From positions 1 through 62,342 of the forward strand of contig JACZWL010000015.1 in assembly GCA_022572185.1 (NCBI GenBank): a stretch of 62,342 nucleotides of DNA. The letters run 5' to 3'. This document shows positions 29,732-41,637 of the stretch, one piece after another. The translations under genes were made by a program, and so were the position numbers. Source of the DNA: Pseudomonadota bacterium (lineage in GTDB: Bacteria; Pseudomonadota; Gammaproteobacteria; Steroidobacterales; Woeseiaceae). Position 1 is the first letter of the stretch, and each line of letters begins with the position of its first letter. A model generated the notes under the pieces. That model ran no database searches. It was not told the origin of the DNA and saw only the letters and a list, made by a program, of their open reading frames with translations.

Positions 29732-31450
29732 ATGGCAGCAACAGCGTCTCAATCCAATCTTTCGGGCCTGCCAAGGCGGCTGGTTCAGGACGGTATTGTT
29801 TCTGCAGAAGACGTACAGAAAGCCTCCGCAGCCGCACGCAAGGAGAAAGTTCCCCTTGTTGTCTATCTCGTGGCAAACGAGATGGCCGATCCCCGGGCTA
29901 TTGCAGTGGCTGCGTCACACGAATTCGGTGTGCCGCTCCTCGATCTCGACGCCCTTGAGATAGACCTCGACTGCCTGCGCGAAGTCGATCAGAAGCTCCT
30001 GAACAAACACCGGGTGTTGCCGCTGATCAAACGCGGCCAGCGCCTGTTTCTCGGCATTTCCGACCCGACGAATCTGCAGGCCATCGATGACCTGAAGTTC
30101 CAGACGAGCCTGCGAATCGACCCGGTTATCGTCGAACAAGACAAACTCGAGGAGTGTATTACCAAGGCTCTCGAAGCCGTCGATACGAGCATGTCTTCGC
30201 TGGAGGATGACGACTTCGACCTCGAGAACCTGGACGTCTCCAGCGGTGACGACGAACAGGAAGACGTAACGAGTAACGACGTCGATGATGCACCGGTCGT
30301 CCGGTTCGTCAACAAGATTCTATTGGACGCAATCAAACGCGGCGCTTCGGACGTTCACTTCGAACCATACGAAAAAGAGTTTCGCGTAAGAACACGACTT
30401 GACGGTGTCTTATCAAAGGTTGCTGCACCACCGGTTGCGCTTGCGAACAAGGTATGTGCGCGGCTGAAGGTAATGTCCAGGATGGATATCGCTGAGCGTC
30501 GTGTGCCGCAGGACGGCCGCATCAAGATGCGCCTGTCGAAAAATCGCGCGATCGATTTCCGCGTCAGCACCTGCCCCACCCTGTTCGGCGAAAAAGTCGT
30601 TTTACGTATTCTCGATCCGGCCAGCGCTAAAATCGGCATCGATGCCCTGGGCTACGAAGACAGGCAGAAGGCCCTGTTTCAGAAGCACCTGGACAAGCCC
30701 TACGGCATGATCCTGGTCACCGGTCCGACCGGATCCGGTAAGACGGTTTCACTCTACACGGGCCTCAATATCCTGAATGAGGAATACCGAAATATTTCCA
30801 CGGCTGAGGATCCGGTGGAAATCAACCTGGTGGGCATTAACCAGGTTAACGTCAATCCGAAAGTCGGCCTGACATTCGCATCGGCAATGAGGGCGTTCCT
30901 GCGACAGGATCCGGACGTCATCATGGTCGGTGAGATTCGTGATCTCGAAACGGCGGAAATTGCCATCAAGGCTGCGCAAACGGGCCATCTCGTCCTCTCG
31001 ACGCTGCACACGAACGACGCGCCCAGTACGCTGACCCGGCTCGTCGATATGGGTACAAAACCTTATGCGATTGCCACTTCGGTCAGCCTGATTATCGCTC
31101 AGCGTCTCGCGAGACGACTTTGCGAGAACTGCAAAGAGGTGAAGGACGTTCCCCGCGAAGCTCTGGAGAAAGAAGGTTTCGGCGCCGAGGATTTTGATGG
31201 CGATCTGACCATCTTCGGTCCGGTCGGTTGCAAGTCGTGCAACGATGGTTACAAGGGGCGTGTCGGCATTTTCCAGGTCATGGAGGTCTCCGAGACGATG
31301 GGCCGGATTATCATGGAAGGTGGCAACGCCATACAGATTGCGGACCAGGCCGCAACCGAGGGGGTCATCGATTTGCGTCGCGCCGGATTGAACAAAGTCA
31401 AGGAAGGGCTTACCGGCCTTGCGGAAATCAACCGGGTTACAATTGACTAG
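29732..31450 (+). CDS. pilB: Pilus extension ATPase PilB
   Basis: The 572-residue hexameric ATPase has an N-terminal MshEN-type domain (LVQDGIVSAEDVQKA, FLGISDPTNLQAIDDL), a very acidic linker at 157-186 (DDDFDLENLDVSSGDDEQED), and the catalytic domain with Walker A GPTGSGKT (331-338), Asp box, Walker B MVGEIRD and His box TLHTND. Four cysteines, CENC and CKSC, form the zinc site. It drives pilus polymerisation from the cytoplasm. MshEN domains often bind c-di-GMP, which matters given the c-di-GMP riboswitch in this window. Confidence 0.96.
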   Translation: MAATASQSNLSGLPRRLVQDGIVSAEDVQKASAAARKEKVPLVVYLVANEMADPRAIAVAASHEFGVPLLDLDALEIDLDCLREVDQKLLNKHRVLPLIKRGQRLFLGISDPTNLQAIDDLKFQTSLRIDPVIVEQDKLEECITKALEAVDTSMSSLEDDDFDLENLDVSSGDDEQEDVTSNDVDDAPVVRFVNKILLDAIKRGASDVHFEPYEKEFRVRTRLDGVLSKVAAPPVALANKVCARLKVMSRMDIAERRVPQDGRIKMRLSKNRAIDFRVSTCPTLFGEKVVLRILDPASAKIGIDALGYEDRQKALFQKHLDKPYGMILVTGPTGSGKTVSLYTGLNILNEEYRNISTAEDPVEINLVGINQVNVNPKVGLTFASAMRAFLRQDPDVIMVGEIRDLETAEIAIKAAQTGHLVLSTLHTNDAPSTLTRLVDMGTKPYAIATSVSLIIAQRLARRLCENCKEVKDVPREALEKEGFGAEDFDGDLTIFGPVGCKSCNDGYKGRVGIFQVMEVSETMGRIIMEGGNAIQIADQAATEGVIDLRRAGLNKVKEGLTGLAEINRVTID

Positions 31451-35943: not shown

Positions 35944-35959
35944 GATACAACATGCGGGC
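35944..35959. repeat. Inverted repeat arm at the secA stop
   Basis: GATACAACATGCGGGC, the partner of 35798-35813, touches the first base of the secA stop codon (minus TAG, 35959-35961). The arms are 130 nt apart. Confidence 0.85.
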
Positions 35960-38682
35960 TAGGAAAGTCTGCCGTGGCATTGCTTGTACTTCTTGCCGGA
36001 TCCACACGGGCAGGGCTCGTTGCGGCCTACCTTTCGCTCGCTCCTGACGAACGGCATGTGTGAGGCTGTCGCAACTGCTGCCGCCCCACCGCCCCGCACG
36101 GCACCGGCCTGCCGCTGTTGTCCGAGTGCCGACGCCTCCGCGTGCTGGAACTCCATTGCCTGCACCGCGCGACGCTGCGCCTCCATTTTTTCGACGTCTT
36201 CCTGGCTCTGGATTCTGACCCTTGAAAGAATACTGATCGTGTCATGCTTGACCTGATCCAGCATCACACCAAACATCTCGAACGCTTCGCGCTTGTATTC
36301 CTGCTTTGGGTTTTTTTGCGCATAGCCTCGCAAGTGAATTCCCTGTCTAAGGTAATCCATGGCCGCGAGGTGTTCCTTCCAGTGATGATCGAGTTGCATC
36401 AACATCACTTCTTTCTCGACGTGATGCATCCTGTCTGCGCCGATCTCGTTCACTTTCGCGTCATAGCTTGTTTGTACTTCGTTTACACAGCGTTCGCGAA
36501 TACCCTCTTCGCTGAGCTTCGTGTCGTCTTTCAGCCACTGGCTTACCGGCAGGCGCACGGCAAAATCATCCTCGATCGCCTGGGTTACCCCGTCCGGATC
36601 CCATTGCTCCTCCAGACTGCCGGGCATGACGTACTGGTCAACGATCAATTCAACCACTTCCGCACGAATTGCCGTCACCGAGTCGGCAATCTCGTCCGCG
36701 GCCATGAGCTCGGACCGTTGATGATAAACAACTTTTCGCTGGTCGTTGGCGACGTCGTCATATTCGAGCAGGTTCTTGCGGATGTCGAAGTTATGGGACT
36801 CCACTTTGCGCTGTGCCCTCTCGATCTGGCGGGTTAACAGTTTGCTTTCTATCGCTTCACCCTCACGCATGCCGGCCCTGGCCAAAAGCGATTTGGTACG
36901 TTCCGGGTCGCCGAAAATTCGCATCAGACTGTCTTCCATGGCCAGATAGAATCGACTGGAGCCTGCGTCACCCTGCCTGCCCGAGCGTCCCCTGAGCTGA
37001 TTATCGATACGGCGTGACTCGTGCCTCTCCGTACCAACGATATGCAGGCCACCTGCCTCGAGCACGGTCGCGTGGCGCTTGTCCCAGTCAGCCCGGATGG
37101 CATCCTTGTCAGTGCCATCGGCGGATGCTGCCAACTCGGCGTCCAGATTGCCGCCCAACACAATGTCGGTACCGCGGCCCGCCATGTTGGTCGCGATGGT
37201 CACGGCACCCGGGCGCCCCGCATGTTGCACGACGATGGCTTCACGCTCATGTTGTTTGGCGTTCAGTACCTCATGCTTGACGTTCTTTTTCTTCAGGAAA
37301 GAGGACAATTTTTCGGATGTTTCAATTGACGTTGTACCGACCAACACCGGTTGTGCGCGATCACGACAGTCCTTGATGTCTTCGATGATCGCCTCGAACT
37401 TGTCGACCTCAGTCAGATATACGAGATCCGGCATGTCATCGCGAACCATCGGCATGTGGGTCGGAATCACGATGACCTCGAGACCATAGATACTCTGAAA
37501 CTCGAAAGCCTCGGTATCCGCGGTGCCGGTCATCCCGGACAGGTTGTCATAGAGCCTGAAAAAGTTCTGAAATGTGATGGACGCAACAGTCTGGTTTTCC
37601 TGTTTGATTGCAACGCCTTCTTTCGCCTCCACGGCCTGGTGCAGGCCGTCGGACCAGCGGCGGCCCACCATGGTGCGGCCCGTAAATTCATCGACGATGA
37701 CGATCTCGCCGTCTTTGACGATGTAGTCGACGTCCTTCCTGAACATGACGTGTGCGCGCAGTGCAGCGTTAAGATGATGGACCAGCCGGATATTTCCAGC
37801 GTCGTACAAACTCTCGCCTTCCCCCAAAAGCCCGGCGTTTGCCATCAGATCCTCTACCTTCTGATGGCCGTCCTCTGTGATGTGCACCTGCTTCGACTTC
37901 TCGTCCTTTGAATAATCGCCCGGGCCGTCTTCCTCCTTTTGTTCGACAAGCTTGGGAATCAGTTTGTTGATCTTTTGATAGAGGTCAGTGCTTTCCTCGG
38001 TGGGCCCCGAGATGATCAACGGCGTCCGGGCCTCGTCGATCAGAATCGAGTCCACTTCGTCGACGATTGCAAAATTCAGTTCGCGCTGCGACTTGGCTTC
38101 AAGAGAAAACGCGAGATTATCCCGCAGGTAGTCGAAGCCAAGTTCGTTGTTGGTCGCATAAGTAATGTCGGCGTTGTAAGCGTCGCGTTTCTCGTCCTGC
38201 GTTTGACCGCTCTTTGTTACGCCGACCGTGAGACCCAAAAACTCATAAACGGGTCCCATCCAGTCCGCGTCGCGTTGTGCCAGATATTCGTTGACGGTCA
38301 CAATGTGGACGCCCTGGCCGCTGATTGCGTTCAGGTAGGCGGGCAATGTCGCCACCAGGGTCTTACCCTCGCCGGTACGCATTTCGGCGATGTTGCCGTC
38401 GTGCAATACCATGCCACCGATGAGCTGCACATCGAACGGCCTCAGGCCGAGTGCGCGCAACGATGCTTCTCTGGCTACCGCGAACGCTTCCGGAAGTAGC
38501 TCCTCGAGGCTCTCACCGTCTGCAAATCGCTTGCGAAATTCCACCGTCTTGGCTCGCAATTGATGCTCGTCAAGACGCTGGATGCCCTCTTCGAGCGCAT
38601 TGATCTTGTCGACAATTTTAGAATATTGCCGAAGCAGCCGTTGGTTCCGGCTACCAAAGATTCGGGTTAGATAGTTTGCCAC
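35959..38682 (-). CDS. secA: Preprotein translocase ATPase SecA
   Basis: The 907-residue motor starts at GTG 38682 (AGGAG nearby) with [20 protein letters not shown]. It has the DEAD-type motor with [38 protein letters not shown] and [14 protein letters not shown], the two-helix finger region, and the C-terminal zinc tail [17 protein letters not shown] that binds SecB and phospholipid. It pushes preproteins through SecYEG. No secM-like gene or arrest peptide was found upstream; the M23 endopeptidase gene is there instead, 188 nt away. Confidence 0.97.
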
Positions 38683-38870: not shown

Positions 38871-39806
38871 CTAGTTCGCGCCCTGGCGTATGAATTTTAC
38901 CGGGTTGACGCGATGGCCACGATGGAGCACTTCGAAGTGCAGGTTAGGTCCCGTGGCCCGGCCGCTGTCGCCCATCAGCGCCACGGTCTGGCCTTTTCTA
39001 ACCTCCTGGCCGATAGAAACCAGGTTTTCCGAGTTGTGCGCGTAGCGCGTCGAGTAGCCATTACCGTGGTTGATCTCGATGAGCTTGCCGAAGCCATATC
39101 GTGACGACGACCAGGTCACGACGCCGTCTGCCACGGCGATAATCTCCGCCCCTAATTTACCGGCAAAATCGACGCCCTTGTGATTGGCGGGTTTCCCGGT
39201 GAAAGGATCCGTGCGTCGTCCGAAATACGAGGACATCCAGCCGGACTTGACGGGCCGCCCTTTCGGATAGACTCTTTCACTGAGATTCTTGTTCATGAGG
39301 ACGCTCTCCAGAACGCCCAGTTGCACTTCACGGTCATCGAGCTGCCTGTCGAGGCCTGCCATTGCTGCGAGCACCTCGGGTACTGCAATGGCTGAGCCGG
39401 TGGCATACGGCTCTTCAGGTCCACCAAACGCAGGATCCGAGTCGAAATCGAACTCGCCGTCCTCGAGGCCAGCCATGCCGGTGAGCCGTCTGCCAAGCGC
39501 ATCGAGGCGGATGATGCGGGCATTCATCTGACCGATGCGGATGGCCAGCGCGTCAAGGGTATCCTCTGTTTGCTGCCGCGTGGTGGCGATTGCCTCGCGT
39601 TGCGAGGCGAGTTCTCCGCTCAGGTTCTCGACCTGGGTCATACTCACGCCGGAGCCCGTCTGCACCGAATACCAATAGCCGCCAACAAAAGCAGTTGAGC
39701 AAAGCGCGCCCGCAACGAGGACGGCGAGGGCAGCCACTGACCTGCCAGACAGGTTAAGCTGCCGGGGTCTTCCGAACCCCTTGCCGAATATGACTATATT
39801 TATCAC
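38871..39806 (-). CDS. M23-family endopeptidase, membrane anchored
   Basis: The 311-residue protein has a short cytoplasmic N-terminus, one membrane anchor at about residues 24-46, a coiled-coil-like periplasmic stretch (60-110) and a C-terminal LytM/M23 domain. Active-site residues: His209 and Asp213 (NHKGVDFAG), His257 (RYAHN) and His290, but the first His of the usual HxH is Asn288 (GPNLHFEV). The fold suggests cleavage of peptidoglycan cross-bridges or regulation of another amidase. The GTG start lies 112 nt after a c-di-GMP-I riboswitch candidate on the same strand, so its expression is probably second-messenger controlled. It lies between lpxC/dciA and secA. Confidence 0.9.
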   Translation of the reverse strand: MINIVIFGKGFGRPRQLNLSGRSVAALAVLVAGALCSTAFVGGYWYSVQTGSGVSMTQVENLSGELASQREAIATTRQQTEDTLDALAIRIGQMNARIIRLDALGRRLTGMAGLEDGEFDFDSDPAFGGPEEPYATGSAIAVPEVLAAMAGLDRQLDDREVQLGVLESVLMNKNLSERVYPKGRPVKSGWMSSYFGRRTDPFTGKPANHKGVDFAGKLGAEIIAVADGVVTWSSSRYGFGKLIEINHGNGYSTRYAHNSENLVSIGQEVRKGQTVALMGDSGRATGPNLHFEVLHRGHRVNPVKFIRQGAN

Positions 39807-39918
39807 GTGCGCCCCGGTGGCGTGTTTTTCGAATTATTAGTCCTTGATATGCAACCAGTTGACTCGCAGACGAGCTGCCACGGCTGGCGCCCTCTCGTTG
39901 TTGTCGGCCCACGCTCAA

Positions 39919-40014
39919 TGGTCACTTCGGTAGCCCCGCTATCCTAGGAACAATTCCCTTAGATCGGTGGTTTTGCGTCCCCGTCTTTCGGCGGGTATGC
40001 CCTTATCGATCGGG
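39919..40014 (-). promoter_or_regulatory. c-di-GMP-I (GEMM) riboswitch candidate
   Basis: The minus strand reads GATAAGGGCATACCCGCCGA, then AAGACGGGGACGCAAAACCA, then CCGATCTAAGG, a variable loop, and ATAGCGGGGCTACCG. This follows the known GEMM-I aptamer, such as V. cholerae Vc2, element by element: AGGGCAnACC, a GAAA tetraloop closed by C/G pairs, GGGACGCAAA, CCnCCG, CTAA, and TAGCGGGGnTACCGA. It sits upstream of the M23 gene in sense orientation. No U-tract terminator lies in the following 112 nt, so control of translation start or of processing seems more likely than attenuation. This is pattern matching by eye without a covariance search. Confidence 0.9.
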
Positions 40015-40114
40015 TAAATATGCATAATGCAGCTTTCCATTACAAGATCAGGCGCCCGGAACCTTGATTCCGGTCACCTGGAAGCCCGAAAATTGCCAAC
40101 TCCGTCACACTTCT

Positions 40115-40426
40115 ATGTCGATAATTCGCCTCGAAAAATTGCTAAAAACGGGCTCCGGCGGGGCCCTGGAGAAAATTGTCCAACGTGCTCAAAATATGGA
40201 CGATTTGACGACCGCCCTGAGGGCGTTTTTGCCGGCCGACGCGCAATCGCATTTGCTCGCAGCCAATCTGCGCGAAAATGGGGAACTGGTGCTGATCTGC
40301 AGCACGTCATCCTGGGCCGCGCGGCTCCGTTTCGAAAGCGACCAGCTGATTGAAGCCGCCCGCATGACGGGTGCCGTCGTCAACAGCTGCAAGGTCAAGG
40401 TATCTCCGTCGGCAGGGAGCATGTAG
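40115..40426 (+). CDS. dciA: DUF721 / DciA-type helicase-loading protein
   Basis: The 103-residue protein from ATG 40115 starts MSIIRLEKLLKTGSGGALEK and contains FLPADAQSHLLAANLRENGELVLICSTSSWAARLRFESDQL, the DUF721 core, which has a KH-like fold. DciA is the common, non-enteric bacterial loader that interacts with DnaB at replication forks. The upstream frame is open to 40064 but not conserved. It is divergent from the M23 gene and convergent with lpxC; its 5' flank overlaps the riboswitch in antisense. A DUF721 gene near lpxC and secA is common in gammaproteobacteria. Confidence 0.85.
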   Translation: MSIIRLEKLLKTGSGGALEKIVQRAQNMDDLTTALRAFLPADAQSHLLAANLRENGELVLICSTSSWAARLRFESDQLIEAARMTGAVVNSCKVKVSPSAGSM

Positions 40427-40527: not shown

Positions 40528-41436
40528 TTACGCGTAGGCGGGAGCTGCGTACGAAATCGGCGCTTTGCGGGAATCCTCGAAGGTCACCTCTTCCCACGCA
40601 GCCGCATCATCCAGAAGAGCACGTAACAACTTGTTGTTGAGTCCGTGTCCGGACTTGTGCCCTGAGAATTCACCAACAAGGCTGTGTCCCAGCAGATAGA
40701 TGTCGCCAATCGCGTCCAGAATCTTGTGAATAACGAACTCGTTCGAATAGCGCAGTCCGTCTTCATTCAGAATCCGGTAGTCATCCAGCACGATCGCGTT
40801 ATCCATGCTGCCGCCCAGCGTCAGGTTGCGCTCGCGCAGTGTCTCGACGTCTCGGAGAAAACAAAACGTTCTTGCACGACTGACTTCTTTCAAAAAAGAA
40901 GTCGATGAGAAATCGATCGAGGCATCCCGGCTAAGCTTATTGAAAACAGGGTGATTGAAGGAAATCTCGAAATTGACTTTGAAGCCGTTGAACGGTGTCA
41001 GTTGCGCCCATTTGTCCTCGTCCTCGACCCGGATCTTTTTCTTGATGCGAATAAAGCGCTTCGCCGCTTGCTGTTCTTCAATGCCCGCCGACTGCAGGAG
41101 AAATACGAAGGGTGCAGCGCTGCCATCCATTATTGGTACTTCTGGTGCCGATAAATCGACCGTCAGATTATCAATCCCCAGTCCGGCCAAAGCAGACATC
41201 AGGTGCTCAACCGTCGCGACCTTGACGCCGTCTTTAATCAGCGTTGTACCCAGCATCGTCTCGCCGACCATTCTCGGGTCGGCTTTGATATCGACCGGTT
41301 TGTCGAGATCTACACGGCGGAACGTAATTCCGGCATTTACGGCTGCCGGGCGCAGGGTCATATAGACTTTTTCGCCAGTATGCAGCCCGACGCCGGTAGC
41401 ACGAATCGCCGTTTTTATGGTTCGTTGTCGCAACAT
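40528..41436 (-). CDS. lpxC: UDP-3-O-acyl-GlcNAc deacetylase LpxC
   Basis: The 302-residue enzyme from ATG 41436 starts [20 protein letters not shown]. It carries out the committed step of lipid A synthesis. Zinc ligands are visible in [11 protein letters not shown] (His) and HKILDAIGD (His and Asp), and the catalytic His in [10 protein letters not shown]. Family length is about 305. It follows ftsZ across a 419-nt gap, as at the end of the dcw cluster in E. coli and Pseudomonas. Upstream in-frame codons to 41571 are not conserved. Confidence 0.97.
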
Positions 41437-41637
41437 AGCTACAAAGTTCCGCGTATTGGCTGCCGGCCGCCTGTTCGCGCCTGACACTCGTCGAAGCCCT
41501 TGATTAGCAGGCCACTGACACTCAAAAAAGACCGGTATCCCCAAAAAAGCCGACATTGTTACGCCGGCCACTGTTGTGCAACCACCACCGAGATTTAAAG
41601 GCTTACGGCAATTGTTTCACACAGGTTAGCGCGAGAG

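Follow-up and report, generated by a model that had tools for sequence, protein, structure and literature searches.

A c-di-GMP-I riboswitch aptamer followed by a maintained leader reading frame, a putative translational relay, upstream of an M23 peptidase-domain gene in Woeseiales-type Gammaproteobacteria

Background

The described systems closest to the locus reported here belong to two riboswitch classes. Two class I c-di-GMP switches of Vibrio cholerae work without transcription termination, and switches of this class can act in either direction (PMC6366702). The other system is the B12 riboswitch of ppe2 in Mycobacterium tuberculosis, which is reported to be a translational OFF switch that masks the start of a short open reading frame (ORF), uPPE2; this ORF acts as a landing pad, overlaps ppe2 by an AUGA, and is coupled to it mainly by termination-reinitiation, as was shown experimentally (PMC11260477). 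In our own literature search neither a leader ORF nor an M23 target turned up for any c-di-GMP riboswitch, which given the partial coverage of that search is weak evidence.

Here we analyze a stretch of 62,342 nucleotides from a member of the Woeseiaceae (hereafter the window), in which an initial annotation made from the sequence alone had placed a candidate c-di-GMP riboswitch in front of an M23 endopeptidase gene.

Results

Identification of the aptamer

The initial annotation had read the minus-strand leader as a GEMM-I aptamer and had proposed that the Rfam covariance model be run on it. The model RF01051 matches over its full length (1–87 of 87) at positions 40011 to 39926 of the minus strand with 79.7 bits against a gathering cut-off of 35 (E = 4.6e-14 for the whole window and 3.2e-16 for a stretch of 431 bases), which confirms that reading, and the GAAA loop as well as the GGGACGCAAA and TAGCGGGGNTACCG blocks are all present in the sequence. 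In the alignment to the Rfam model the consensus helices are formed, with two pairs flagged as non-standard. An alignment of 34 aptamers, taken from the source genome (the window's among them) and from related genomes, shows a conserved core and changes on both sides in 14 of 22 pairs, with 94.1% of the cells paired; none of 500 shuffles reached the real alignment on any of five measures, and in slid controls pairing dropped to 31–46%. By comparative sequence, the aptamer (39926..40011, minus strand) is thus a new member of a known riboswitch class, presumably with c-di-GMP as its ligand.

The G at window position 40000 (position 12 of alignment A3), which is invariant in the 34 aptamers, we take to be position 20 in the literature numbering of c-di-GMP-I riboswitches. 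A G20A change at that position is reported to lead to recognition of cGAMP (PMC7288161).

The source genome contains ten GEMM-I matches, eight of them above the cut-off, and 16 GGDEF matches, two of which lie within one frame; c-di-GMP is therefore probably made in this cell. The ORFs located 3' of seven other aptamers of the genome fall into four with a Pfam match (He_PIG/fn3 domains, a FAD-binding domain, a PagL lipid A deacylase, and a weak DUF11 match below the cut-off) and three without any. The PagL-type lipid A 3-O-deacylase (L005, 732-1313, minus strand) starts 187 nt downstream of its aptamer. At a related M23 locus, L098, a second GEMM-I match of 53.9 bits is found nearby on the opposite strand (1519-1632, minus).

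Genomic context and candidate promoter

The gene order at the locus is ftsZ, lpxC, dciA (divergent), aptamer, M23 and secA. The proximity of the M23 gene to lpxC, secA and a pilus block, as noted in the initial annotation, is borne out by Pfam for LpxC (40528-41571, minus), for the M23 gene and for a PilB-type ATPase with an MshEN domain (29732-31450, plus; about 8–10 kb from the riboswitch). FtsZ was named by reading, and SecA (35959-38682, minus) was named from the ORF list and then used as a query. MshEN domains bind c-di-GMP in other proteins, and the one in the PilB-type ATPase represents a second possible c-di-GMP receptor near the riboswitch.

Immediately upstream of the aptamer lies the divergent dciA (40064..40426, plus; PF05258, 42.7 bits), which had gone unmentioned before and whose true start, by reading, is probably an internal ATG near 40115. 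In the named loci in which tblastn detects dciA it is likewise divergent. Directly upstream of the aptamer, the elements TTGTAA (40045-40040) and CATATT (40022-40017), separated by a 17-nt spacer, constitute a probable promoter (40017..40045, minus), as judged from columns that are largely invariant among 25 aligned leaders; a generic sigma-70 scan returned no site in this stretch. Between the aptamer and the M23 gene no terminator-like site was found on the minus strand, in agreement with the earlier statement that no terminator follows.

Linkage of aptamer and M23 gene among relatives

Within the same family the M23 gene was found in 28 genomes, of which 27 could be assessed (G015 was excluded, its gene being cut by a contig end). 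Conservation of the leader, which the initial annotation had asked to be checked, holds in most but not all of these relatives: the aptamer lies upstream of the gene in 25 of the 27 and is absent in two (G007 and G030), while in the order's other families 20 genomes were compared, of which 11 keep it, covering 8 of 14 families, and nine lack it. Combined, 36 of the 47 order members that retain the M23 gene and could be assessed show the linkage. Loss of the aptamer with retention of the gene, which had been named as evidence against the proposal, therefore does occur, and reads as scattered absence. Outside the order, the aptamer was found in none of the 60 M23-bearing genomes of the class that were examined; these were taken from 77 such genomes, leaving out G145 (contig start) and the 16 weakest matches. 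One M23 copy was counted per genome, which leaves out second matches in G008, G012, G043, G049 and G056; a second M23 match in G042 (L088) is without an aptamer.

Among 80 named loci, a set which overlaps that of the order relatives, 33 have the aptamer, although its absence says little for L107, which is cut before the leader, and for L126, which has less than 150 nt of upstream sequence. These loci were scored only with model R1, built partly from M23-linked aptamers, while other loci were also scored with Rfam. Some of the named aptamer loci carry labels such as Steroidobacter (L112). Ten of the 18 named loci nearest to the window protein (66–81% identity) are labelled Woeseia or Woeseiaceae, the remaining eight Proteobacteria, Deltaproteobacteria, Gammaproteobacteria or Chromatiales. 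Because the aptamer was seen in none of the 60 genomes outside the order, as against its presence within, the link between aptamer and M23 gene looks, from the genomes compared by order, like an innovation of the order with scattered absence.

Two observations concern genomes in which the arrangement differs. L068 (G039; 2524-2606, minus) carries in front of its M23 gene a decayed or divergent aptamer-like sequence of 18.5 bits, counted here as lacking the aptamer, which is possibly a riboswitch in the course of being lost or changed. Eight small same-family genomes of genus g5 (G004, G014, G019, G022, G025, G028, G031 and G034; 1.1–2.0 Mb, completeness 65–99%) have neither an M23 match nor a GEMM-I match, as if the regulon had been lost through genome reduction.

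A leader ORF between aptamer and M23 gene

The interval between aptamer and M23 gene contains an ORF which the initial annotation did not report (39803..39925, minus). It begins with a GTG (39925-39923) at the first base after the aptamer (offset 0), comprises 40 codons and ends with a TGA (39805-39803) that overlaps the M23 start as GTGA; in relatives the overlap is mostly ATGA. We counted the full layout as present when a start codon lay between -2 and +5 relative to the aptamer end and a stop between -12 and +15 relative to the M23 start, using 70 leaders that were reduced to 62 by dropping eight near-duplicates, and calling those with at least 60% protein identity Woeseiaceae-type. This layout is present in 35 of the 37 dereplicated Woeseiaceae-type leaders and in 15 of 25 more distant ones, whereas with shuffled spacers it arose on average in 0.9 of 37 and in 1.0 of 24 leaders, and never in more than 5 of either set (L117, whose start was set by hand, was omitted from the shuffle test). 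In all, a leader-ORF stop within the given distance of the M23 start occurs in 50 of the 62 leaders. In L086 and L117 the M23 frame itself opens at the aptamer end, the aligned M23 start of L086 lying 82 nt further on in the same frame. Ten of the 62 leaders are without the ORF, eight of them from distant relatives that do have the aptamer, so a different platform exists in these eight.

The frame test, in which 43 leaders were dereplicated to 37, showed stops in the leader-ORF frame in four leaders and in each of the other frames in 34, with 30.8 expected from shuffles. Of the four exceptions, L098 and L052 nevertheless have an ORF that terminates at the M23 start, the one in L051 stops 17 nt before it, and L062 lacks the ORF altogether. 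As a control, the same frame was followed over the last 117 nt in front of 56 M23 genes without GEMM: stops were found in 42, against 51 and 50 in the other frames, meaning that these leaders too are somewhat more open in this frame (14 of 56 versus 5 and 6 of 56). Spacers in the 37 leaders are mostly 122 or 119 nt long, with 116 and 101 also occurring, and in two spacers of 123 and 112 nt the start codon is displaced, by which the frame is restored. Since M23 proteins mostly begin with Met-Asn, a TGA in the +1 frame arises automatically at their start and the overlap alone proves little; the informative evidence is the start position together with the open frame, both of which, like the position of the stop, are established by comparison of the leaders.

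The association with M23 was also apparent among 39 aptamer loci, where all ten upstream of M23 open at least 34 codons right after the aptamer, and only four of the other 29 open at least 30 codons, two of these being long genes (L004 and L017). The L017 product, in G005, has 404 aa and carries AAA and FHA domains. In L004 of the source genome (1501-3002, plus) the aptamer is followed directly by the ATG of a gene for a 472-aa protein without a Pfam match, and there is no leader ORF.

Peptide, frame and an internal stem-loop

Over the middle codons of 21 leaders, pooled pairs differ 3048, 3632 and 3409 times at codon positions 1, 2 and 3, without an excess at the third position, and these counts rule out a strongly conserved leader peptide. 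A weak constraint on the peptide is possible, because 10 of 12 close leader pairs had a dN lower than their dS in the middle codons, albeit pairs that are short and overlapping. The length of the ORF is 34–41 codons in those Woeseiaceae-type leaders that have it and 15–90 codons in other families. From these comparisons, the leader ORF looks to be selected mainly for being translated through.

Within the ORF we identified a stem-loop (39866..39912, minus; 39912-39906 with 39872-39866, inner helix 39891-39886 with 39879-39873) on the basis of covariation. Its helices, numbers 2 and 3 of alignment A4, show both-sided changes in 9 of 13 pairs, and none of 500 shuffles scored as high as the whole A4 structure; A4 consists of 17 hand-picked leaders, and the structure was tested on the same alignment that produced it.

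The M23 protein

The M23 gene (38871..39806, minus) starts with GTG, 5 nt downstream of a GGGG (39815-39812), and encodes 311 aa with an M23 peptidase domain at residues 208-302 (PF01551, 108.8 bits) and, as judged by eye, a hydrophobic stretch at the N-terminus. Its designation as a wall endopeptidase in the initial annotation holds as far as the domain and the zinc ligands are concerned: H209, D213 and H290, and likewise the upstream H257, do not vary among 19 aligned sequences, the window's being one of them. The first His of the HxH motif, however, is replaced by Asn288, as it is in 15 of these 19 sequences (the window's included), which makes the term endopeptidase unsure. According to a review, this His is not a zinc ligand but the proposed activator of the water, and M23 proteins without the full catalytic set act mostly via protein contacts (PMC9662197).

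Among the named loci, Asn is found at this position in 22 of 31 with the aptamer, two further aptamer loci giving no reading, and in 4 of 47 without it, one of these four being L107 with its leader cut off. Shared ancestry alone may account for this association, which does not prove that Asn and aptamer are functionally linked.

Discussion

A model for control through the leader ORF

In the initial annotation, control of M23 translation had been considered more likely. The lack of a detectable terminator is in line with this, but the first target is probably the leader ORF and not the M23 start. We favour, with a probability of roughly 0.65, a model built on the comparative sequence data in which the aptamer gates the entry of ribosomes to a relay ORF whose translation is coupled to that of M23. 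In detail, a promoter in the dciA/M23 intergenic region would give rise to an mRNA beginning near the c-di-GMP-I aptamer. Ribosomes would enter at GCGGGG in the 3' strand of the aptamer, begin at the codon right after it and make a peptide of some 40 residues with little conservation, melting the conserved stem-loop en route; termination at the stop overlapping the M23 start, followed by re-initiation, would then yield the M23 protein. Binding of c-di-GMP would stabilise the aptamer and block ribosome entry, and M23 would be reduced via the coupling, making this an OFF switch.

The proposed ribosome-binding sequence GCGGGG (39934..39939, minus) forms the 3' side of the second helix of the aptamer, is paired in the Rfam consensus and lies 8 nt before the GTG of the leader ORF in the window; relatives also have the variant GCGGAG. 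The fifth base of this strand, G or A, changes together with its helix partner (columns 43/95: CG 21, UA 6, UG 5, other 2), so the Shine-Dalgarno-like strand should stay paired in the folded aptamer. From this position we infer that it serves as the Shine-Dalgarno sequence of the leader ORF.

Given the rest of the model, an OFF switch is somewhat favoured over the opposite sign. A more confident assignment is hampered because class I switches work either way, because in the free ensemble the Shine-Dalgarno sequence of the leader ORF is already mostly paired (over 62 leaders its mean probability of being unpaired is 0.21), and because enforcing the aptamer in ensemble folds of 25 leaders did not consistently alter the accessibility of the region around the M23 start. 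The single-sequence fold of the window leader is unremarkable (z -0.29). A P1 pairing of the 5' flank with the start region, by which the start codon of the leader ORF would be buried, was unsupported by a partner-swap test, in which swapped partners were at least as good in 39 of 300 cases overall, in 285 of 300 within the Woeseiaceae-type leaders and in 15 of 300 in the rest.

Alternative explanations

The aptamer might instead control M23 directly, with the leader ORF being incidental or secondary: without ligand its 3' strand (GCUACCG) would pair with CGGGGC before the M23 start, and c-di-GMP would free this sequence, giving an ON switch such as Vc1 of V. cholerae, a class I ON switch (PMC4744006). 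The consensus fold of 17 leaders does pair aptamer columns 6-12 with the M23 Shine-Dalgarno columns 124-129, with 87.3% of the cells paired. This helix, however, shows a both-sided change in just one pair, each of its strands has another reason to be conserved (one as aptamer core, the other as M23 Shine-Dalgarno sequence), and the lack of a consistent shift in accessibility upon enforcing the aptamer argues against it as well. As direct pairing would also leave the conservation of the frame unexplained, we regard it as unlikely. A further step down in probability is control of the Rho type, in which the ligand-bound aptamer would stop translation of the leader ORF and expose the transcript to Rho termination, while without ligand the translated ORF would protect it. 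No intrinsic terminator was detected from the aptamer to the gene, and an open ORF with little conservation of its peptide would suit such protection too, yet under this model the ORF could end anywhere, whereas in 35 of 37 leaders it ends at the M23 start.

A functional small protein under c-di-GMP control as the product of the leader ORF appears improbable. The open frame, the similar size within the Woeseiaceae-type leaders and the excess of dS over dN in most close pairs are compatible with it; the missing third-position excess and the wide range of lengths in other families are not what would be expected. Least credible of all is that the aptamer is a relic kept by chance without a regulatory role: its occasional absence or decay (as in G007, G030 and L068) might be read this way, but the conserved core, the covarying helices in 34 aptamers and the linkage to M23 in most relatives of the order speak against it.

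Possible significance

The favoured model, control of M23 through the relay ORF, leads us to a broader and more tentative proposal, which we consider possible rather than probable. A Woeseiales-type c-di-GMP riboswitch would control an M23/LytM protein via a maintained relay ORF, whose frame, start and stop/start overlap are selected while its peptide is largely free; the Asn-bearing target may regulate other wall enzymes instead of cutting, which would tie the decision between sessile and motile life to wall remodelling at a division and envelope locus. If true, c-di-GMP signalling would be joined directly to cell-wall remodelling in Woeseiales-type Gammaproteobacteria, which are common in marine sediments. 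It would also mean that a riboswitch architecture, an aptamer-gated relay ORF that keeps its frame while its peptide changes, has been held by selection across families, and such a relay would explain how an aptamer about 120 nt distant could control a gene without a terminator. The comparative-genomic signature described here is offered for the detection of coupled leader ORFs behind other riboswitches.

Comparison with known systems

The best match of the M23 protein among solved structures in a profile search is ShyA, of the M23/LytM type (E 8.1e-33). With M23 proteins such as ShyA it shares the M23 domain, the H(x)3D motif and the zinc-binding second His of HxH; it differs from them in Asn288, which takes the place of the first.

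Like the GEMM-I switches Vc1/gbpA and Vc2/tfoX of V. cholerae, the riboswitch of the window fits the complete aptamer model, has the conserved blocks and is located in a 5' leader. Unlike the V. cholerae switches, as far as these are covered in the sources consulted, it has an M23 target beside lpxC, dciA and secA and a leader ORF that abuts the aptamer. In this latter respect it resembles ppe2/uPPE2, where a start codon also lies beside the aptamer and the stop overlaps the main start, and the likeness would extend to a Shine-Dalgarno sequence within an aptamer helix. It differs from ppe2 in ligand, aptamer and phylum, and here different families of one order share the arrangement with peptides that have changed. 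What is new here is thus the putative aptamer-gated relay ORF behind a c-di-GMP aptamer, for which we found one close precedent, ppe2, in another riboswitch class.
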